From positions 62,001 through 126,000 of the forward strand of contig NZ_JARZHF010000011.1 in NCBI RefSeq assembly GCF_029891575.1: a DNA stretch of 64,000 nt. Reading direction: 5' to 3'. Source of the DNA: Salipaludibacillus daqingensis. GTDB taxonomy: Bacteria; Bacillota; Bacilli; Bacillales; Salisediminibacteriaceae. This document shows, piece after piece, positions 51,741 to 64,000 of this stretch. A model generated the notes under the pieces. The model searched no databases. It saw only the letters and a program-made list of their open reading frames with translations, and was not told the DNA's origin. Numbering within the stretch: the stretch's first letter is position 1; each line of letters begins with the position of its first letter. Position numbers and translations under genes: made by a program.

Positions 51741-54700
51741 CTATAATATACTCTTATTCGCCTTTGGAGCGAGCCACGGTGCGATCGGTTCATCCAGTTT
51801 CCAGATGAAGCTGACAGGTTTACTTCCTGAATGGCTCACATAGTTACACGTTCCAAGAAAAGTAAACGGTGCCGTTAAGCCCTGTTCTTTCTTGTATTCT
51901 CTCACGAATAAAGCAATCTGATGCCCCGAACTTCGATGCGTCCGATATCGTTTCGCTGTGTCGCTCGTATCAGAAACGCGACTTTGCGACTGCCAATGGA
52001 ACAAACGATCGTTAATCGCATAATCTTCATAGAGTGTGGACGGTGAGAAATCCTTTTCTGATTTATTTAACGTGATAAAAAAGATATCTAAGTTTTTCTC
52101 AGGGAAGTGTTTCACCCCTTCACGGAAATTCGGACAGCTTTCCTCTGTATAAAGTCCGAGCGCTGCCATCACTTGTGCCGTGGAATAAGTTGAATGCACG
52201 CCTAACGGGTCTTGATCATGCAGATAACTTCGCTTTTCCACCGTCTTTAACGTTTCATACAAATACTCCAACACTTGAACGACTTCCTTAATCAATCGTT
52301 CATGTGAAAAAATGGTTTTAAGAGCGTCATGAGCGGAATCATAGCCCGCTTTCAGTGGCGATTCTCGGTCAAAAAAAGTATAGTAAAGCATTAATTCCAT
52401 TTTTCGTTCTTCATCTGAATCAACGTTAACCATTCGCCCTGGCAACCCTTTCATATACTCAAGTAAAAATGCCAAAAACCTTTCTGAATTAAGATGAAAA
52501 AGGCCAGACAATCGTTTCGTAACGACGTCTTCATGATTGCTCGTAAAGTCGTCTCCCACTCCTGCTTCAACCTTCATTCTTTCAAACGTTCTATTTCGAC
52601 TTTTCCCATAAAAATCAAAGATAGAGATTCCTTCATATGAAAGAAAGTTTGATAACGTCAACGCTAAACCTGTATCGTTAGTAAAATGAACCAATTTGCT
52701 GATCAAATGAGCCTTCGTATTGGCCGACTGACTGATGTTTTGCAACACATACTCTTTAGCCTGTTTCTCTAACTGAATAAAACACCCCTTCGGTAAATTG
52801 AAAAAGCCATGATCGACAAAGTGCTTCACAGAATGCTTTGTTTTTCCGATCAATGAACGAAATTTGTCCTCGAATTTGTAGTTTTTATGGGCTCGACCGA
52901 TGAAATCCAACACAGTCAAGCATTCTTTCCCATCTGCTAAACGAAGCCCACGACCTAACTGCTGCATAAATACGGTTAAACTCTCTGTCGGCCTCAAAAA
53001 TAACACGGTATTTACTTCAGGAATATCCACACCTTCATTATATAAATCGACGACAAAGATAAAACGCAGCTCACCAGACTTTAACTTGGCTTTTGCTTGA
53101 TCTCTCGTCTCTTTATCCGTTTGGCCATAAAGAGCCACAGAAGGAATCCCTTTCATGTTAAAAAAGTCAGCCATATACTTGGCATGTTCAATCCCGACAC
53201 AAAAGCCAAGACCTTTCACTTCATCAACATCCGTCACGTACGTTTCGATACTTTTAATCACTTGGGTGCTGCGTCTCGTGTTGTGCGTATAAACATTTTC
53301 CAACTCTTTTAAGTCATACCCACGTTTACTCCACTGCAGTTTTGATAAGTCTTCGGTATCACTGACACAAAAATAATGAAACGGACTTAATAGTTTGCGG
53401 TCAACAGCCTCCGTCAATCGCATTTCAGACGCAATTCGATAATCAAAGTATTGGAGAATATCTTCGCCATCCATTCGCTCAGGCGTTGCGGTTAATCCAA
53501 GTAAAATAGAAGGTTCGTAGTAATTTAACAACGTTTGATACGACTTAGCAGCTGCGTGATGAAATTCATCGACAATAATATAATCGTAAAAATCAGCAGA
53601 TGTTTTCTCATAAAGTTTGATACTATTGAACGTTTGAATGCTGATAAATAAATGGTCAATCTCTTCAGGTGTATGTCTTCCAACAAAAAGATCTCCGAAG
53701 TTGAAATCCTTTAAAATCGCTCGAAACGTATCGCGACTTTGTTTTAATATTTCTTCTCTATGTGCAACGAACAGCAATCTTGGTCGCTGAGATCTCGTTT
53801 GTTTCTCTGCAAACCGTTTATAGTCAAATGCAGATACAACCGTTTTTCCAACACCTGTTGCTGCGACAATGAGGTTTTTATGCCTTCCGAAAATGTCTCG
53901 CTCTGCTTGAAGTTTTTCTAAAATCTCTTGCTGGTAATGGTAAGGCTGAATATCCAACATAAAATGGATGTCATTTTCATATGTAGATTCTTTTTTCGAT
54001 AAAGCTTGTTTTAATCGGTCATGATCGCTTTCTTCCCTTGCGTCAAAAAGTTGATATTCCTGATCATTCCAATAGCTTTCAAATGTCGCATTAAATTTAT
54101 TGATAATATCAAAGGAGTCTTTTTCCGTTACTTTCATATTCCATTCAAGTCCTGACGTCAAAGCAGGATTGGATAAATTCGAAGAACCTATGTATGCCGT
54201 TGTAAAACCCGTTTCTCTGTGAAAAAGATATGCTTTTGCATGTAATCTTGTTCGTTTCACGTCATATGAAACTTGAATTTCCGTATTCGGCAACTTACTT
54301 AACTCTACAATCGCTTTATAATCGGTCGCTTCCATATAAGAAGTCGTAATAATCCGCAGATGTGTCCCCTCTCTGCTCGTAAAACGTCTCAGTTCATCGA
54401 TAATACAACGAATCCCGCTCCACTTAATAAACGATACAAGCATGTCTACTCGATCGGAAGTCAAGATTTCCTTCTTCATTTCACTGAGCATATTCGGCTC
54501 ATAATGAGATCCTGTGAACAAGGAACTTTCCGAAATAGGTGTCACAGGTCTCGTCGATTTCTGATGAGTAATCGCTCGTTCCGTATTCAACTTTGCATAA
54601 ACCGCTTCTAGCACACGTCCTTCTTCTGAAATCGCGAGAGACGCCTCATCATCTAATTCCGAACTAAGTTTGGCAATCACTTGATTACACATTTGAATTT

Positions 54701-54914
54701 GCTTGAGCAACGCTTGTCCATCGTTGTTACCCTCTCGTTCACGTACAAAGCGAAGAGCTCTGCGAGTAACGGTAGATACATAAGAAGCAAGCATCTTCCG
54801 CGCCTCCTCTACATCTAAGGCGGACTCTTCTAAATAAAATTCATCGTCTCCAAGTTCCTTTAACTGTCGTCGCAAATCATCCGTAATGACTTGCTCATAA
54901 ATTCCGTCCCGCAA
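51741..54914 (-). CDS. PLD-nuclease/superfamily 2 helicase with DUF3427
   Basis: A 1057-residue multidomain protein. An N-terminal helical region (1-130) leads to a phospholipase-D-type nuclease (about 135-285) with one HKD motif, H225-x-K227, followed by GSSNLSNPAL. A superfamily 2 helicase (about 320-690) has ATGVGKT (352-358), VDEFHHA (448-454), LTATP and QQLGRGLRLADGK. A linker and a C-terminal DUF3427 domain (about 860-1050) follow. This architecture occurs in defence islands and may process foreign DNA. The start is TTG 54914 with AGGAAGTGA. The Nudix gene follows. Confidence 0.85.
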   Translation of the reverse strand: MRDGIYEQVITDDLRRQLKELGDDEFYLEESALDVEEARKMLASYVSTVTRRALRFVREREGNNDGQALLKQIQMCNQVIAKLSSELDDEASLAISEEGRVLEAVYAKLNTERAITHQKSTRPVTPISESSLFTGSHYEPNMLSEMKKEILTSDRVDMLVSFIKWSGIRCIIDELRRFTSREGTHLRIITTSYMEATDYKAIVELSKLPNTEIQVSYDVKRTRLHAKAYLFHRETGFTTAYIGSSNLSNPALTSGLEWNMKVTEKDSFDIINKFNATFESYWNDQEYQLFDAREESDHDRLKQALSKKESTYENDIHFMLDIQPYHYQQEILEKLQAERDIFGRHKNLIVAATGVGKTVVSAFDYKRFAEKQTRSQRPRLLFVAHREEILKQSRDTFRAILKDFNFGDLFVGRHTPEEIDHLFISIQTFNSIKLYEKTSADFYDYIIVDEFHHAAAKSYQTLLNYYEPSILLGLTATPERMDGEDILQYFDYRIASEMRLTEAVDRKLLSPFHYFCVSDTEDLSKLQWSKRGYDLKELENVYTHNTRRSTQVIKSIETYVTDVDEVKGLGFCVGIEHAKYMADFFNMKGIPSVALYGQTDKETRDQAKAKLKSGELRFIFVVDLYNEGVDIPEVNTVLFLRPTESLTVFMQQLGRGLRLADGKECLTVLDFIGRAHKNYKFEDKFRSLIGKTKHSVKHFVDHGFFNLPKGCFIQLEKQAKEYVLQNISQSANTKAHLISKLVHFTNDTGLALTLSNFLSYEGISIFDFYGKSRNRTFERMKVEAGVGDDFTSNHEDVVTKRLSGLFHLNSERFLAFLLEYMKGLPGRMVNVDSDEERKMELMLYYTFFDRESPLKAGYDSAHDALKTIFSHERLIKEVVQVLEYLYETLKTVEKRSYLHDQDPLGVHSTYSTAQVMAALGLYTEESCPNFREGVKHFPEKNLDIFFITLNKSEKDFSPSTLYEDYAINDRLFHWQSQSRVSDTSDTAKRYRTHRSSGHQIALFVREYKKEQGLTAPFTFLGTCNYVSHSGSKPVSFIWKLDEPIAPWLAPKANKSIL

Positions 54915-55522: not shown

Positions 55523-56620
55523 ATGGAAGCAAATTTTTCTTACTCTTTTCCTGCTCTTCGGGGGAAACAGGCAAATAGAGAATACTATGTTGTTATGTGT
55601 CCCTTAAGATTAATCCCTAGAATATTTTTATTTGATGAGGAAGAAATCCCACCTGAACATCGCTCACAACGGATATTAAACAAAAATAGAGTTCCGGAGA
55701 TTACAAATTATATACTTGAGAATATTAAAGATTACGTGTTCTCTTCGCTTACAGCTTCAGTTGATGGTAAAATGGAATTTCAGCCTTATTCAGATGAAGA
55801 ACATTTTAAAGATTTAGGAAAACTAGTAATCTCATTAGATTCTAAGTTTCTTATTAATGACGGTCAGCATCGCCGTGCTGCTATTGAAGAGGCATTAAAA
55901 ATGGCACCTGAGCTCGGTAATGAAACTATCTCTGTTGTTTTTTACAACGATAAGGGCTTAAGAAAGTCACAACAAATGTTCGCTGATTTGAACCGTCATG
56001 CTGTTAATACTACATCTTCAATTGGTATTCTTTATGACCACCGAGATCAGATGGCAACTTTAACAAAAGAGGTAGTCAACGATATTCCATTATTAGAACG
56101 ATACACTGATAAAGAGAGGGTTTCAATTTCTAAGTTATCGCCAAAGCTTTTCTCGTTAAATAATATTTTTAATACAAACTGCAAATTGCTGAATAAGAGA
56201 AAAGGCGAACTTATTTCTCAACAAGAAAAAGAGTTTATTATGGAATTTTGGCTATTAATATCTGAATCTATTACAGAATGGCAACAAGTCATTCGAAAAG
56301 AATTAACCCCTACTCAATTGAGATCTAACTATATAGTTGCTCATGGTGTTTTTTTAGAAGCAGTGGGTGTTGTTGGTTATTATTTATATCAAAATTATCC
56401 AACCAATTGGAAAGAATATATAAAAAAATTATCTAAGGTAGACTGGAACCGTTCAAACAAAAAAGATTGGATGGGACGAGCTTTTGGTTCAACTGGAAGG
56501 ATTAACAAAAACAATCAAACGATTCAATTAACCGCTAATTTAATCAAACAAAAATTATCTCTTCCATTACTAGAGCATGAAATCGAAATGGAAGAAAAAC
56601 TAAGGTCTGGTGATATTTAA
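55523..56620 (+). CDS. dndB: DNA sulfur modification protein DndB
   Basis: A 365-residue protein with the diagnostic DGQHR motif at about residues 113-117 (FLINDGQHRRAAIEEAL), followed by MFADLNRHAVNTTSSIGILYD. In other bacteria DndB is not needed for modification itself but tunes its frequency and represses the operon. Length fits the family. It is the first gene of the cluster, with GAGAGGAG before ATG 55523, and its TAA shares a base with the ATG of dndC (TAATG). The presence of dndB right before dndC is the usual order. Confidence 0.93.
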   Translation: MEANFSYSFPALRGKQANREYYVVMCPLRLIPRIFLFDEEEIPPEHRSQRILNKNRVPEITNYILENIKDYVFSSLTASVDGKMEFQPYSDEEHFKDLGKLVISLDSKFLINDGQHRRAAIEEALKMAPELGNETISVVFYNDKGLRKSQQMFADLNRHAVNTTSSIGILYDHRDQMATLTKEVVNDIPLLERYTDKERVSISKLSPKLFSLNNIFNTNCKLLNKRKGELISQQEKEFIMEFWLLISESITEWQQVIRKELTPTQLRSNYIVAHGVFLEAVGVVGYYLYQNYPTNWKEYIKKLSKVDWNRSNKKDWMGRAFGSTGRINKNNQTIQLTANLIKQKLSLPLLEHEIEMEEKLRSGDI

Positions 56621-58119
56621 TGTCAACTAAGTTTATTAATGCAGAAATGATAGAGACAACTAAGAAACATATTCAAGATGTATATTTAATGGATGATCGT
56701 CCATGGGTAGTCGGATACAGTGGTGGAAAAGATTCCACTGTTGTGGTTCAACTTGTATTCGAAGCATTAAGAGAATTGAAATCGGAGCAACTAAAAAAGA
56801 AAGTATATGTCATTTCTTCTGATACTTTAGTTGAAACTCCGCTTATTATTTCCTCTATTAATACAACTTTAATGAGGATTCAAGATAAAGCATTGGAGAT
56901 AGGTCTTCCAATCGAAACTCATAAAGTTCGTCCAGATGCTAGTAAGTCGTTTTGGGCTTCGTTGATCGGCAAAGGTTATCCATCACCACGGCAAAAGTTC
57001 CGCTGGTGTACAGACCGTTTAAAAATTGACCCTGCAAACAAGTTTATTTTAGATAAAGTGTCAAAGTTCGGCGAAGTCAATATGGTATTAGGTGTGCGCG
57101 ATAATGAAAGTCAAACAAGAGATCAAGTCATGAAATCTCACACTATTGAAGGAAAAGTTTTAATGAGACACTCTTCCTTATCCAATGCTTTTGTATTTGC
57201 ACCTATACGTCAATTTTCTGTCGATGACGTTTGGGATTACTTGTTAACATACCCTTCACCTTGGGGTAATGATAATCATGAGTTATTATCTTTGTATCAA
57301 AATTCAAACAGTGAATGTCCACTTATTGTAGACAAAGATATTAAAGAAAGTGCTGGATCTTGCGGAAACAGTAGATTTGGTTGCTGGGTATGTACAGTCG
57401 TTAAAAAAGATAAAGCATTAATTGGCTTTATCGAAAATGGTGAAGATTGGATGGTTCCATTACTGGAATTCAGAAATTGGCTTTCAGATATTCGAGATAT
57501 ACCTAAGTATCGACAAAAGCACAGAATGAATGGTCAAGTTTATATGTTACCTGTAAATTTAGAAGACATTGATGAAGAAGATAAATATACAATTATTGAA
57601 GAAGAAGAACTTTCTAATTATATAGAGAAAAATCAAATTAATCTAGCAACTGTCGAAGAACTTAACCTGTTAGTTAAAGATAAAGAAGGAAACCATAAAA
57701 AACTTGGCCTTGGTCCCTTCACTTTGAAAGCCCGCGAAGAAATATTAAGATTTCTATTAGAAACACAAATGAAAGTTCAAGAACAGCATCCAGATGATCC
57801 TGAATTCGAACTGATTAGAGAAGATGATTTACAAATGATTCGTAAATATTGGCTTACAGATGGTGATTGGGATGATCGAGTACCAAAGATTTATAAAGAG
57901 GTTACTGGTAAAGATCTTGATTGGGAATATAATGACCGTCCTCTTATTGAAGAAGAGCAACTGACAGATTTGGAAATATTATCACAAGATTATGGCCTCA
58001 ACCTTCAACTTTTGAAAAAATTAATTTCTATTGAGAAAAAATACTCAGGCTACAAAGTTAGAAGAGGACTTCACCAAGATATAGAGAAGACATTAAAGCA
58101 AGATTGGTTGCATTTGTAA
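56620..58119 (+). CDS. dndC: DNA sulfur modification protein DndC
   Basis: A 499-residue PAPS-reductase-like enzyme that activates the DNA backbone for sulfur incorporation. The PP-loop is GYSGGKDSTVVVQ (about residues 32-44), which binds and hydrolyses ATP. Four cysteines likely hold a 4Fe-4S cluster: C130 in KFRWCTDR, and C248, C255 and C258 in SCGNSRFGCWVC. The C-terminal half is family-specific. It works in the DndCDE complex and takes sulfur from the cysteine desulfurase. It overlaps dndB by one base and precedes dndD by 19 bp. Confidence 0.95.
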   Translation: MSTKFINAEMIETTKKHIQDVYLMDDRPWVVGYSGGKDSTVVVQLVFEALRELKSEQLKKKVYVISSDTLVETPLIISSINTTLMRIQDKALEIGLPIETHKVRPDASKSFWASLIGKGYPSPRQKFRWCTDRLKIDPANKFILDKVSKFGEVNMVLGVRDNESQTRDQVMKSHTIEGKVLMRHSSLSNAFVFAPIRQFSVDDVWDYLLTYPSPWGNDNHELLSLYQNSNSECPLIVDKDIKESAGSCGNSRFGCWVCTVVKKDKALIGFIENGEDWMVPLLEFRNWLSDIRDIPKYRQKHRMNGQVYMLPVNLEDIDEEDKYTIIEEEELSNYIEKNQINLATVEELNLLVKDKEGNHKKLGLGPFTLKAREEILRFLLETQMKVQEQHPDDPEFELIREDDLQMIRKYWLTDGDWDDRVPKIYKEVTGKDLDWEYNDRPLIEEEQLTDLEILSQDYGLNLQLLKKLISIEKKYSGYKVRRGLHQDIEKTLKQDWLHL

Positions 58120-58138
58120 TGAAAGGATTTAATTAATT

Positions 58139-60148
58139 ATGAGACTTAATAAAGTAATTCTTAGTAATATTGGAGCATATCACGGACATTATGAAATAGA
58201 CTTATCAATTGACAGTCCAAAAAGAAAATTAATTCTTTTTGGTGGGAAGAATGGCGCTGGGAAAACTACATTATTAGATTCCATTCGATTAGCTCTATTC
58301 GGTCCTTATACTTATGGTTTTCGCACAGAGAACGAACAATATTTCAACAAAATAAAACCTATGTTAAACAAGACCGCAGTTAATACTAATGAAAATTTAT
58401 ATCGAATTATTTTAGAATTTGATCGTGTAGAGGATTATCAAAGAAATTCTTACACCATTAAAAGAAGCTGGAGAATAGATAAAAATAAGATTAAAGAAAC
58501 TTTCGAAGTTCTCAAAGATGGCATGCACCTTAATGAAAGAGAAAGTGAAATATTTCAATCAAGACTACGTGAAGAAACACCACCTCAATTATACGAGCTT
58601 TGTTTATTTGATGGAGAAGAAATTTCTAGAATAATTACAGATCAAAAATTATCAGATTATATTCGGAATTCTGCTAGAGTTTTATTTAGTTTAGACCTAT
58701 TTGAAAATTTAGAGCAAGATATCAATCAATACATGAAACAAACCTCTGCTGAAGGAAAAAAATCTGAACATGAAAATGAGTTAGAGCAATTTGAAAAAGA
58801 TTTAACTATTAAACAAAATGAATATAACAACCTCCATAATGAAAGATCTTCTCTTTACGATTCTATTGAAATGAAACAAAATGAAGTAGATCATTTAAAA
58901 AAGGAATTTGAAATTCATGGTGGTTTAGTAAAAGATGAACGGGACCAATTACTAAAAAAAATAAATGAAATAGAATACCGCAGAAAGATAAATAGTGAAA
59001 GTATTCGTTCGTTTATAACAGGACTCCTCCCTATCTATCTAGTAAGGAATTTATTGACAGATGTTCAACAGCAAATGATAAGTGAAAAAGAAATAGAAAG
59101 CTACGATTTTGTTTCAAAATCCGTAGATACAAATCAGTTAACTAATTTAGCTTCTAAACTTAAAGCCTCAGGTTTAAGTGCAGAAATAAATAACGAAAAG
59201 TCTTTGGAGCAACTTTTATTAGATGAATTTTTAACTGCTATTAAACCCGACGACAGTTCATTTATTCATCGAGCTTCATTTAATCAAAGAACAGAAATTG
59301 AAACAATCTTAAATGAGTTAAAAAAACTAGATAAACATAAGTACATTGACTTATACTCTGAAAATCAATCCCTTTTATCCAAACTAAAGAAACTAAAAAA
59401 TCAAGTCGAAGATAATGATAAAAACCAAGATTTCAAAGAATTGTTTGATAAAATGCAAGAATTGAATCAACAAATAGAACAATCAAATGTAAAAGTCGAT
59501 AAAATTGACCAGCAATTGATTAATTTAAATGAAGTTATTACAAAACTAAATACCGATCATGAACGCATAAAAACTAAGCTGATTGAATCTACAAAATCAG
59601 AGACTACCTTGTCTCTTTCTCTTAAAATTTCAGAAGTTAGTAAAAAATTTAGAAGTCTTCAATTAAAAAAGAAACTTCAACAAGTAGAATTTGAAGCGAC
59701 AGATATGATTAATCAACTTTTTAGTAAGGAAAACTTTATCCACCAAGTGAAAATCGATTCTGAGACATTCGAAATTACTCTTCTTTCATCACAACAAGAA
59801 GAAATAGACCAGCATAAGATCTCTGCAGGAGAAAAAGAACTCCTACTTCTATCAGTAATTTGGGCAATGTTTAAAACCTCCGGTAGTCGCATGCCATTTA
59901 TATTTGATACGTTATTAGGAAGGTTAGATAAAACACATAGAGAACGGTTATTAACCAAGTTAATTCCTAATTTCGGGGAACAAATCATAATACTCTCTAC
60001 TGATTCTGAAATTGATAAAGAGCATTTTGAGTTAATTGAACCTATCCTATCAAAGACATATACCTTGAACTTTGATGAAGAAAATCAAAAAGTGCAAATT
60101 CAAAAAGGTAAATACTTCGATTTAAGTGAAACGGAGTGGAGCAAATGA
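58139..60148 (+). CDS. dndD: DNA sulfur modification ATPase DndD
   Basis: A 669-residue SMC/Rad50-like ATPase. Walker A is LFGGKNGAGKTTLLDS (about residues 33-48), two coiled-coil arms span about 200-280 and 400-520, and the C-terminal lobe has the signature ISAGEKELLLLSVIW (561-575) and Walker B MPFIFDTLLGRLD (585-597). The DTLLGRLD form is typical of DndD. It supplies nicking or remodelling energy during phosphorothioation. Its last codons overlap the ATG of dndE as ATGA. Confidence 0.95.
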   Translation: MRLNKVILSNIGAYHGHYEIDLSIDSPKRKLILFGGKNGAGKTTLLDSIRLALFGPYTYGFRTENEQYFNKIKPMLNKTAVNTNENLYRIILEFDRVEDYQRNSYTIKRSWRIDKNKIKETFEVLKDGMHLNERESEIFQSRLREETPPQLYELCLFDGEEISRIITDQKLSDYIRNSARVLFSLDLFENLEQDINQYMKQTSAEGKKSEHENELEQFEKDLTIKQNEYNNLHNERSSLYDSIEMKQNEVDHLKKEFEIHGGLVKDERDQLLKKINEIEYRRKINSESIRSFITGLLPIYLVRNLLTDVQQQMISEKEIESYDFVSKSVDTNQLTNLASKLKASGLSAEINNEKSLEQLLLDEFLTAIKPDDSSFIHRASFNQRTEIETILNELKKLDKHKYIDLYSENQSLLSKLKKLKNQVEDNDKNQDFKELFDKMQELNQQIEQSNVKVDKIDQQLINLNEVITKLNTDHERIKTKLIESTKSETTLSLSLKISEVSKKFRSLQLKKKLQQVEFEATDMINQLFSKENFIHQVKIDSETFEITLLSSQQEEIDQHKISAGEKELLLLSVIWAMFKTSGSRMPFIFDTLLGRLDKTHRERLLTKLIPNFGEQIIILSTDSEIDKEHFELIEPILSKTYTLNFDEENQKVQIQKGKYFDLSETEWSK

Positions 60149-60519
60149 ACTTCAGACTAAAAACATCAAAGTATGCAGAAGAAAAACTTAAACAGCTTCA
60201 AGCAGCAACCGGAATTACACCAAATATTTTATCTCGAATTGCAGTTTCTTTATCTCTAAATGACCAAAGTGAAGTAACGGCCGATTCCGTCCCAAATGCA
60301 AATGGTCAAGAGTTTAATCGAAATACGCTAACTGGGGAATATGATTATGTATATAACACTCTCATAGCACAACATGCAAAGCGAGAAGTTAAAGATGAAG
60401 AATACTTTCCAGGATTATTTAATGCACATCTCGAACGAGGTATTCGCATGTTATCTAATGAATATCAATATGCTGGAAATTACGAAAAATTAATTACAAA
60501 CTTAATTAAAGATCACTAA
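60145..60519 (+). CDS. dndE: DNA sulfur modification protein DndE
   Basis: A 124-residue small basic protein. RLKTSKYAEEKLKQLQAATGITPNILSRIAVSLSL is the conserved helical N-terminus, and FNAHLERGIRMLSNEY the C-terminal block. DndE binds nicked DNA and joins the DndCD complex. ATG 60145 overlaps the dndD stop (ATGA) and has GGAG eight bases upstream; a GTG at 60136 would add three residues. Immediately followed by the cysteine desulfurase gene. Confidence 0.93.
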   Translation: MNFRLKTSKYAEEKLKQLQAATGITPNILSRIAVSLSLNDQSEVTADSVPNANGQEFNRNTLTGEYDYVYNTLIAQHAKREVKDEEYFPGLFNAHLERGIRMLSNEYQYAGNYEKLITNLIKDH

Positions 60520-60533
60520 TTGGAGTTGTTTTT

Positions 60534-61661
60534 ATGATCTATTTGGATAATAGTGCAACAACAGCCATCGCACCTGAAGTGTTAGACGTTATGCTTCCAT
60601 ACTTAAAAGAAGAGTATGGTAACCCTTCAAGTAAATATTACAGTCTAGCTGAGAATGCCAAAAAAGCAGTTGCTGATGCTAGACAAAAAGTAGCTAATCT
60701 TATCGGTTGTGAAGAAGATGAAGTAATATTTACTAGTGGGGCTACAGAAAGTAACAATATGATTCTTAAGGGAGTGTCCGATTTCTATAGTAACAAAGGG
60801 AATCATATTATAACGTCTAAAGTCGAACACCCTTCAACCATAGAAACATGTAAATATCTAGAAACAAAGGGGTTCAAAGTAACGTATTTAGATGTTGACC
60901 AATATGGAAGAGTAAACATTGATGACCTTGAATCGTTACTTTCCTCAGATGATAAACCAATACTATTAAGTATTATTTGGGGTAATAATGAAATTGGATC
61001 ATTAAATAACATAGAGTCTATTTCAAAACTTTGTCATGAATACAACGTCTTTTTCCATACAGATGCTACTCAAGTTATGGGAAAAGTAGATGTAAATATT
61101 GACTCTACTCCAGGTATTACTTTTTTATCTTGTTCAGCTCATAAAGTCCATGGACCTAAAGGTGTGGGGGCTTGTGTTATCCGTAAAAACAAGCTAGGGT
61201 TAAAAACGAAAATTACCCCCCTACTTCACGGTGGTGGGCAAGAAAATGATTATCGTAGCGGAACTCTAGCAGTTCATAATATAGTTGGGTTCGGTAAAGC
61301 TGCCGAGTTGGCTAAAGATAACCTTGAACAAAATAGTCATAGATTACACGACTTTGAAAGCCAAACTAAATCACTACTAATTGAGAAATTCGGCAATGAT
61401 ATTTATTTCAATAATGATGAAACCAATAAAATTCCAGGTTTGATTAGTTTACAACTTAGAAGTGTTAATAATGAACTTTTCATTCGAAAAGTTGCTGATC
61501 GTTTAGCAATATCTACTGGTTCTGCATGCAGTTCAACAAAGCCAAGCCACGTATTAGCGGCTATTGGTAAAGATATTAATGAAGTAAGAAGTACTTTAAG
61601 AATAACTTTATCGCAACAAGTAGATATGGAGCAACTATCTAAAATAATAAAAGACATATAA
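60534..61661 (+). CDS. dndA: Cysteine desulfurase DndA/IscS-type
   Basis: A 375-residue PLP enzyme that extracts sulfur from cysteine for transfer to DndC. The PLP lysine lies in SCSAHKVHGPKG (K204), HTDATQ holds the cofactor-ring Asp, and the catalytic cysteine is in STGSACSSTKPS (C332). The N-terminal MIYLDNSATT is standard. In many dnd clusters dndA is divergent or absent and a housekeeping IscS is used; here it is last in the operon, 14 bp after dndE, with GGAG upstream. A terminator follows at once. Confidence 0.92.
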   Translation: MIYLDNSATTAIAPEVLDVMLPYLKEEYGNPSSKYYSLAENAKKAVADARQKVANLIGCEEDEVIFTSGATESNNMILKGVSDFYSNKGNHIITSKVEHPSTIETCKYLETKGFKVTYLDVDQYGRVNIDDLESLLSSDDKPILLSIIWGNNEIGSLNNIESISKLCHEYNVFFHTDATQVMGKVDVNIDSTPGITFLSCSAHKVHGPKGVGACVIRKNKLGLKTKITPLLHGGGQENDYRSGTLAVHNIVGFGKAAELAKDNLEQNSHRLHDFESQTKSLLIEKFGNDIYFNNDETNKIPGLISLQLRSVNNELFIRKVADRLAISTGSACSSTKPSHVLAAIGKDINEVRSTLRITLSQQVDMEQLSKIIKDI

Positions 61662-61695
61662 AAGAAATGGTCAACTGACCATTTCTTTTATTTTT
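61661..61695 (+). terminator. Terminator of the dnd operon
   Basis: AAAGAAATGGTCA (61661-61673) and TGACCATTTCTTT (61676-61688), a perfect 13-bp stem with a tight 2-base loop, followed by TATTTTT. It begins at the stop codon of the desulfurase gene. The following 245 bp to the convergent gene show nothing else. Confidence 0.8.
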
Positions 61696-61939: not shown

Positions 61940-63226
61940 CTATGCATCACCAGTTTTATTTAAGTATTCTTTTAAAGCTTCTTCAATAACTCTAGATTTG
62001 CTACTGTCGTTTTTTTCAGCATATATATCTAAGTTTTGATAAATAGATTCAGAGATGAAAATTGTACTCTTTATTTTTCTTGTATTCTCCTCTCTATCCT
62101 CTAACTCCTTCATAAACTTCCTAATCTTACCTATATCTTCAACTGATAAAGCCATCGATTCATTAATTGAATCATCTACTTTATTTAAATTATCTTCTTC
62201 TTTCTGCGTTACTTCATCAGATTCATTGTGCAGCACCGGTCTGTCTTTTTCCTCTTGATCAGAAGAAGGAGTTGGTAGTATCACCCCGTGTTTTCTTAAC
62301 TGGTCATTTAGTGTATTGGAATTGATGCCATACTCTAAACTTGCATCTAAATAACTTATTTCTCCCTTGTTTATACGCTCTGCTACTTCTCTCAAAAGGC
62401 TTTCACGTGAAATTTCTGTCCACATTCCAAAGTAGGAATCATACCTGATATTCTCTTTATCTAGAATCCTTCTAATTTTAAACGCAGTCGTCTTATATTT
62501 CTTTGCCACTTTACTTACTGACTTGGTCAACTTTACCTCAGAAATAATCCGTGCTTCGTCCAACTGACTATTACTATCAGGTACTTCTTCCTTAACTTGT
62601 TTATTATCCTTAGTTTCCTCTTGAATGACTTCTTTGCTAACAATATCATTTTTTTTAGTTAAATTACGATTTTTATTGTCATAATGGTAACCTATCTCTT
62701 TCAATTTACTCTCTAAATTAATAACAAAAGAAGTGCGTTTTTTTCTATTTATAGCAAACTCTTTAGATAAGTCATAAAGAGTTATACCACTTTTAAGGTC
62801 TGCTACTATTTCATTAATTAATTCCTCCTCTTTTACGGTTGACCAATGATCGATAAAGGAATGGTAGATAAGATTGTATTCTGCGATTAGTTTAGATATT
62901 GTTTCTCTATCTAGCTTTAATCTATCAGTTAACTCTTGTTTGTCTTCCACTTCATTTAGTATAACTTTTAGTTCTGAAGCTGTTGGTATAAGAATTTTAG
63001 ATTCATGTGGCTGAGCCGAAGTTTTATGAGTAGAAGCTGTTGAAGTGTAATGTTCATTTTTTTCGATTTTAGACTCATTCTCAATTAAATTTCGTTCTCG
63101 TTCTCGTTCACGTTCACTTGCATTTTCAGTCTCAGATTCACTTATAATTTCACTATCTTCTAATTCTGCTTGAATTTTATTTTTGGGCTTTTTCATATAA
63201 TCGTCAATCAGTTTTATAATGTCCAT
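61940..63226 (-). CDS. Unrecognised protein with duplicated HTH module and RHH tail
   Basis: A 428-residue protein not assigned to a family. Residues 1-80 are charged and low-complexity, with a run of alternating Arg-Glu at about 38-45. Two similar modules follow, each two helix-turn-helix-like stretches around a tryptophan: YHSFIDHWSTVKEEELINEI (121-140) in the first and YDSYFGMWTEISRESLLREV (262-281) in the second. Each continues with a YDLSKEFAI/YLDASLEYGI helix pair. A variable linker (320-385) leads to a C-terminal ribbon-helix-helix domain, STIFISESIYQNLDIYAEKN and SKSRVIEEALKEYL. This suggests DNA binding and dimerisation. Last gene of the operon facing dnd. ATG 63226 with AGAGGG nine bases before is chosen over 63235. 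Confidence 0.75.
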   Translation of the reverse strand: MDIIKLIDDYMKKPKNKIQAELEDSEIISESETENASERERERERNLIENESKIEKNEHYTSTASTHKTSAQPHESKILIPTASELKVILNEVEDKQELTDRLKLDRETISKLIAEYNLIYHSFIDHWSTVKEEELINEIVADLKSGITLYDLSKEFAINRKKRTSFVINLESKLKEIGYHYDNKNRNLTKKNDIVSKEVIQEETKDNKQVKEEVPDSNSQLDEARIISEVKLTKSVSKVAKKYKTTAFKIRRILDKENIRYDSYFGMWTEISRESLLREVAERINKGEISYLDASLEYGINSNTLNDQLRKHGVILPTPSSDQEEKDRPVLHNESDEVTQKEEDNLNKVDDSINESMALSVEDIGKIRKFMKELEDREENTRKIKSTIFISESIYQNLDIYAEKNDSSKSRVIEEALKEYLNKTGDA

Positions 63227-63240
63227 AATTAACATCCCTC

Positions 63241-63690
63241 TTAATATAATAACTTAGTAATATCATTGAATTCTTTCTGAGAGGAATCTTTAATTCCTTC
63301 CATTTCTAATAAAAAATCATAAAGGTTGTCCGTGAAGTTTGAAGGAGAATCGTTGTAGACTTGCATTATTCTCTCTAATCCTCCTGCAGCATATTCTTCG
63401 AATATAGTGATTTTGTCATCAAACCTATCAGGATTTATAATATCAAGGTCTTTTGTATCTTTTATAGCTACCATATCTATAACGATTTCATCCGTATTCA
63501 GATTAAACACATTCCAAGAGATTCCTTCAGTTGAATTGTCAAAAGATTTTTTTCTTTTATAAAAGAATCCAATCAGACCTGCCAACATAAAAATATCTTT
63601 ATAAGTTGAAAATATGCCGTATTCCTCTTTGTCTACTAGCATCGTATAATAAGCTTCTTGGTCTTTTGGCCTTCTAACTCTGCGCATCAT
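63241..63690 (-). CDS. Dnd system-associated protein 4-like
   Basis: A 149-residue soluble protein. The opening RRVRRPKDQEAYYTMLVDKEEYGIFSTYKDIFMLAGLIGFFYKRKKSFDN resembles, from memory, the Dnd system-associated protein 4 family, found beside phosphorothioation genes in several phyla and of unknown function. The C-terminus is acidic and helical. It starts 17 bp inside the preceding ATPase frame, with GAGGTG just upstream; ATG 63687 is an equal alternative. It ends shortly before the HTH-RHH gene. Confidence 0.65.
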   Translation of the reverse strand: MMRRVRRPKDQEAYYTMLVDKEEYGIFSTYKDIFMLAGLIGFFYKRKKSFDNSTEGISWNVFNLNTDEIVIDMVAIKDTKDLDIINPDRFDDKITIFEEYAAGGLERIMQVYNDSPSNFTDNLYDFLLEMEGIKDSSQKEFNDITKLLY

Positions 63691-64000
63691 TATTCACCTC
63701 AATTATTTGAGTATATTCATAAGGCTCACTATTTTCATGACGAGGATCATTATATTTTAAGATATATTCTTTTCCGACCTTTTTCTTAATTTCTGATTCT
63801 ACCTCTCCACTCCACTGGGATGGGGATACAATTATAACTACTTGGTCAGCTAGTAAATGAATTCCTTCAGCTACCCTTCTTCTATGATCAGTATCAAGTG
63901 CTCCAAAAGGAGAATCCATTACTAGAGGATAGATTCCTCCTTCTTCTAAGAAGTTTTTATTTTCTTTGTTAAATTGTTCTCGTGTCAAATTAACAATAGC
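63674..64000 (-). CDS. SMC-like ATPase, C-terminal part (partial at the edge)
   Basis: The frame is open to the right edge (codons upstream of TTG 63988 continue without stop), so this is the C-terminus of a larger gene. YPLVMDSPFGALDTDHRRRVAEGIHLLADQVVIIVSPSQWSGEV is the Walker B (VMDSPFGALD) and switch region of SMC/Rad50/DndD-type ATPases. It resembles ATPases found in Dnd-associated clusters more than DndD itself, whose Walker B here is FIFDTLLGRLD. The rest, including Walker A and coiled coil, lies beyond the window. Confidence 0.75.
   Translation of the reverse strand, partial: AIVNLTREQFNKENKNFLEEGGIYPLVMDSPFGALDTDHRRRVAEGIHLLADQVVIIVSPSQWSGEVESEIKKKVGKEYILKYNDPRHENSEPYEYTQIIEVNNDAQS

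Follow-up and report, generated by a model that had tools for sequence, protein, structure and literature searches.

The phosphorothioate locus of Salipaludibacillus daqingensis raises the question which effector module faces its dndBCDEA modification operon. On the stretch analyzed here (the window; 64,000 nt, positions 62001-126000 of contig 11, NZ_JARZHF010000011.1), a convergent minus-strand operon runs off the right edge; the locus was read past this edge as L004 and L005 (window position = L004 position + 58000; Table 1). A first-pass annotation had described three close-packed minus-strand genes for a partial SMC-like (structural maintenance of chromosomes) ATPase, a protein resembling Dnd-associated protein 4 and a protein with helix-turn-helix (HTH) and ribbon-helix-helix (RHH) domains, together proposed as an alternative phosphorothioate-sensing effector. 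The three genes are present as described: the HTH-RHH gene (X, product P0003) is separated by 5 nt from pbeD, which overlaps pbeC by 17 nt. Reading on to the right adds two genes upstream of pbeC (pbeB and pbeA). Judged from profile matches and motifs, the operon is a bacterial PbeABCD-type (CxC ABC ATPase) module. Thus, the annotated observation was confirmed and its interpretation partly supported: the operon remains an effector-type module that is linked to Dnd and has an ATPase as its motor, yet it is PbeABCD itself rather than an alternative to it.

The ATPase matches the PADLOC profile for PbeC with 757 bits, a label which is not specific, since the PbeC models also match both DndD proteins of the locus (880 and 413 bits). 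The CxC motif is present in 85/85 PbeC rows versus none of 36 DndD and none of 13 DndD2, C333-I-C335-G being invariant across seven aligned PbeC, and the score against TIGR03185 (132.7 bits) remains below the cut-off of 245.85. An SMC identity was rejected: SMC ATPases, as characterized in the text of PMC10853773, possess a hinge domain and a long coiled coil of 800-1000 residues, whereas the complete PbeC comprises 667 aa in total, carries its CxC motif in mid-protein and does not display this hinge and coiled-coil architecture. The adjoining gene codes for the 149-aa PbeD, which bears out the annotation as Dnd-associated protein 4 (TIGR04062, dnd_assoc_4; 92.8 bits, cut-off 74.25) and, according to its model, has a DndE fold, so that the DndE cognate characteristic of Pbe lies next to the ATPase. 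Of the 11 TIGR04062 genomes, seven score above the curated cut-off, and PbeD of G241 is not among them. A 61-aa PbeB-like ORF between pbeA and pbeC is preceded by a GGAGGT stretch and has relatives at the same position in L020, L035, L036 and L037. The predicted superfamily 2 (SF2) helicase PbeA scores 547.3 bits against TIGR04095, under the cut-off of 600, and 555 bits against PADLOC PbeA, covering profile residues 246-668 only.

Order (A-B-C-D) and families agree with those given in the text of the reports on PbeABCD (PMC6459918) and on the CxC ABC ATPase system (PMC10853773), the CxC ATPase, the DndE-type PbeD and the adjoining dnd genes being common to PbeABCD and the present operon. In contrast to the described PbeABCD, PbeA lacks the HKD nuclease domain here, a fifth, HTH-RHH gene follows pbeD, and the locus also carries DptFGH and a second DndDE set. 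The same order of dndBCDEA, CxC pair and DndDE2 is found in the duplicated DndBDE/DndDE clusters of PMC10853773, from which the present locus differs, as far as the text of that paper shows, by the directly adjoining dptFGH and by X. Since Rakesh 2024 records a CxC pair flanked by duplicated DndBDE/DndDE clusters in 39 taxa (PMC10853773), and Xiong 2019 counts 25 dndCD clusters in which PbeAC and DndFGH occur together (PMC6459918), the locus layout is, as far as these texts go, already known. According to the latter text, dndCD accompanies 42.1% of 553 PbeAC pairs, and pbe thus occurs more often without dnd than with it.

Comparison loci were the best 80 of 91 PbeC relatives. In 21 of these 80 loci (L076, L078, L083, L085, L088, L089, L091, L096, L098, L102, L104, L110-L112, L114-L116, L118-L121), SspB- and SspC-like genes, i.e., Ssp-type modification genes, stand beside PbeA-C-D, and none of the 21 has dndD or dndE in the stretch read. 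In case of L096, four upstream genes match BrxP/SspD, SspB, SspC and SspA. In L097, L103 and L109, the protein preceding PbeC-PbeD is not PbeA but one of 1386-1420 aa that matches the DptF profile.

Based on profile matches, the locus as a whole consists of four phosphorothioate parts: dndBCDEA (592.8 bits for TIGR03183, cut-off 290.4), pbeABCD-X, sp-dndD2-dndE2 and dptFGH. The second, divergent set comprises a PF20306 match, DndD2 (TIGR03185, 313.6 bits; cut-off 245.85) and DndE2 (P0007), whose family matches DndE with 96% in profile comparison; P0007 alone reaches DndE by BLASTP with E 0.005 only and has no Pfam match. The DptFGH set is complete, with all three genes on the minus strand in an operon of its own distinct from the pbe-X genes, and its scores for TIGR03237 (1113.7 bits) and TIGR03236 (255.5 bits) exceed the cut-offs, PADLOC DndF matching with 706 bits. 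The 3' end of dptH is located 6.0 kb past the window edge, on the strand of the pbe operon. Hence, the annotated lack of DndFGH and PbeABCD holds for the letters of the window and is lost on extension, and a dndFGH-type partner beyond the edge is precisely what the first-pass annotation had named as evidence against itself. This also bears on the proposal that the pbe operon is a stand-alone phosphorothioate-sensing effector replacing DndFGH. Archaeal PbeABCD together with DndCDEA does restrict virus without DndFGH, as stated in the text of PMC6459918; here, however, a complete dptFGH lies in the same locus, on which ground a stand-alone effector lacking DndFGH was rejected, and PbeA is devoid of HKD, rendering such replacement very unlikely.

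In most loci the N-terminus of PbeA forms a domain with a HEKxGIxxD-like motif, and the text of PMC10853773 assigns a PbeA-fused HKD nuclease to the vast majority of CxC systems. In the present PbeA this domain is absent, with Walker A located at residue 49, and the operon is therefore classed as a Pbe variant. A tblastn search of L004 (E <= 0.01) yielded no HKD remnant, an HKD gene elsewhere in the genome not having been sought. A nuclease-less PbeA appears to be new. The HKD count started from 84 loci (own, L034-L036 and the 80 best), 78 of which have a PbeC above 600 aa; nine of the 78 were left unscored due to a missing, cut or frameshifted PbeA (L056, L063, L077, L081, L094, L097, L103, L106, L109). 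An HKD was called intact by a length above 640 aa plus the motif column, and DptFGH was read from TIGR03237 genome-wide, L034-L036 being judged by the dpt genes of their loci instead; in case of L113, which is outside the tree, the TIGR03237 match is under the cut-off. HKD is also absent from PbeA of L036, L048-L052, L057, L060, L082 and L093; L035 and L045 have other residues in place of its catalytic H and K. Thus, 13 of the 69 scored loci have no HKD or an inactive one, and 12 of these have DptFGH genes (L082 being the exception) versus seven of the 56 with intact HKD (Fisher 6.6e-8, kinship ignored). The tree-based test, with four supported independent contrasts, was not significant (average DptFGH change: same way 0.9, opposite 0.0, no difference 3.1). 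The tie between HKD loss and DptFGH is accordingly a lead, the independent losses being too few for proof. In the genomes of L049-L052, L057, L072 and L093, DptH frames span 1297-1340 aa, compared to 1693-1782 aa in the remaining eight of the 15 genomes, and are therefore probably without the HerA/FtsK part.

The same data could reflect decay of pbe since the arrival of DptFGH, with HKD loss as first step and the modules uncoupled. The concentration of HKD loss in loci with DptFGH and the non-significant tree-based result agree with this; on the other hand, the remaining pbe genes are open here, HKD-less helicases persist in a five-genome clade that has PbeA-D, and Walker A is kept in 11/11 HKD-less PbeA, so that decay is considered unlikely.

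The fifth and last gene of the operon encodes X. Its architecture is modular, which agrees with the annotated HTH-RHH protein: four tandem HTH modules (residues 86-134, 137-195, 224-275 and 278-322; AlphaFold2 model and repeat profile), the first three modelled with a beta-hairpin wing, are followed by a helix (365-385) and a C-terminal RHH at about 387-430, the latter matching CopG chains (E 4e-4) and Arc-like repressor phrogs. Among X proteins the number of mutually related HTH modules ranges from one to seven by repeat profile. NCBIfam and PADLOC hold no family for P0003, DUF4007 is not among its five Pfam matches (E <= 0.1), and profile comparison did not relate the RHH to DndE, DndE2 or PbeD (0.1-1.4%). 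The matches listed in the fold comparison contain only generic HTH folds, the triple winged HTH of DUF4007/SspB-DndG being absent among them. X would work like DndG and SspB, the target-recognition subunits with triple winged HTH described in the text of PMC10853773, with tandem HTH modules beside the ATPase of a phosphorothioate system; it differs by the extra RHH and the variable module number.

X is present in 11 of the 80 fetched loci plus the own locus. Ten of these 12 genomes carry dndC; the annotation had made a predominant occurrence apart from dnd a point against itself, and this does not apply to X, in contrast to pbe in general (see the share of PbeAC pairs above). A link with DptFGH on the tree was not significant (five supported pairs). 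The unknown-function phrog_2727 matches 7/12 X, and X may be of phage origin. Searches by tblastn with P0003 against plasmids and phages, with X of L044 against phages and with X of L060 against plasmids gave no match, nor did an X search of viral contigs or a search of genome contigs with P0003 alone. X model scans of genomes, which scored at most three candidates per genome in two overlapping samples, included one in which 18 of 23 matching genomes matched the C-terminal part only (model position 319 on). Two chromosomal proteins of ~180 aa with one HTH and an RHH (L157:9642-10196, L158:9664-10203) are miniature relatives, the 20 kb read around them containing no dnd/pbe genes, and possibly represent ancestors of X. 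The family appears undescribed in the published text compared.

The main rival to a targeting role is that X acts outside the effector complex as a local transcription regulator, an Arc/CopG-like repressor with HTH arms balancing dnd, pbe and dpt. The RHH matches, the short one-HTH relatives away from dnd/pbe and the position of X between operons, shifting among three of them, point in this direction. However, X is the last, co-directional gene of a pbe, dndD2E2 or dndBCDEA operon in 10/12 loci, its range of HTH numbers would not be expected of an autoregulator, a promoter scan of the region did not outperform shuffles (46 vs 44.3), operator-like repeats were not conspicuous there, and DndB has already been proposed as dnd regulator in the text of PMC10853773. 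A regulatory role is hence possible, though doubtful.

Taken together, the probable reading is a Pbe variant that lacks its nuclease and carries an additional subunit for DNA targeting, within a four-part phosphorothioate locus. DndA-E would place phosphorothioate on host DNA, PbeC and the DndE-fold PbeD would form a DNA-scanning or looping complex, and PbeA would serve as its motor. Since PbeA is without HKD, the module would either block replication in the absence of DNA cleavage, which the text of PMC6459918 reports for archaeal PbeABCD, or leave cutting to DptFGH; dependence of Pbe on DptFGH is advanced tentatively. X would dimerize via its RHH, read DNA with the HTH array and act as an extra targeting subunit for ATPase-DndE complexes, comparable to DndG and SspB, a role that is quite conceivable if short of probable. 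The family would then be a candidate answer to how such complexes choose DNA. Rather speculatively, X may represent modular DNA readers that determine where CxC-ATPase/DndE immune complexes act, that can be swapped between the pbe, dndD2E2 and dndBCDEA operons, and that serve alike with Dnd-type phosphorothioation, Ssp-type phosphorothioation or adenine methylation, with HKD-less Pbe as non-cutting sensor/motor needing the DptFGH nuclease. DNA cutting by PbeABCD is disputed, Xiong 2019 reporting no cleavage (PMC6459918) and Rakesh 2024 arguing for cleavage from the HKD nuclease (PMC10853773), both according to their texts; a pbe operon with open genes, without HKD and beside dptFGH and dndBCDEA allows testing this question.

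Table 1. Features of the phosphorothioate locus (window positions unless prefixed by L004 or L005)
Feature	Position	Strand	Evidence
dndBCDEA modification operon	55523..61661	+	ORF listing; PADLOC DndB, C, D, E, A matches; TIGR03183
Bidirectional terminator-like hairpin, dndA/minus-strand operon interval	61658..61691	both	
X (P0003), fifth/3'-terminal gene of pbe operon, 431 aa	61940..63235	-	ORF listing
PbeD/Dnd-associated protein 4, 149 aa, predicted DndE fold	63241..63690	-	ORF listing, TIGR04062
pbeC, 3' part	63674..64000, open at window edge	-	ORF listing
pbeC, complete, 667 aa	L004:5674-7677	-	PADLOC PbeC, CxC motif
PbeB-like, 61 aa	L004:7667-7852	-	ORF, relatives at matching place
PbeA-like SF2 helicase without HKD	L004:7876-9282	-	TIGR04095, PADLOC PbeA
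Sp-DndD, DndD2, DndE2 (second set, divergent)	L004:9308-11971	+	PF20306, TIGR03185, DndE profile
dptH, dptG	L004:12009-18564	-	TIGR and PADLOC profiles
dptF	L005:570-2945	-	TIGR and PADLOC profiles

The hairpin between the convergent operons has perfect 16-bp arms, starts at the dndA stop codon and is terminator-like on either strand; six terminator-like sites were counted in the stretch versus 2.7 in shuffles. Divergent to dndB, a 1057-aa protein (window 51741-54914, minus strand) with PLD/HKD, SF2 helicase and DUF3427 domains matches the PADLOC Type IV methyl-directed REase (774 bits), and DUF3427-type proteins also adjoin dnd/pbe genes in L045 and L047. Right of dptF on contig 11, further defence-type genes (L005:4937-14805) encode a NERD+HRDC protein, a Drt2-type reverse transcriptase (499 bits), an HNH protein and a helicase with MTES_1575 nuclease.
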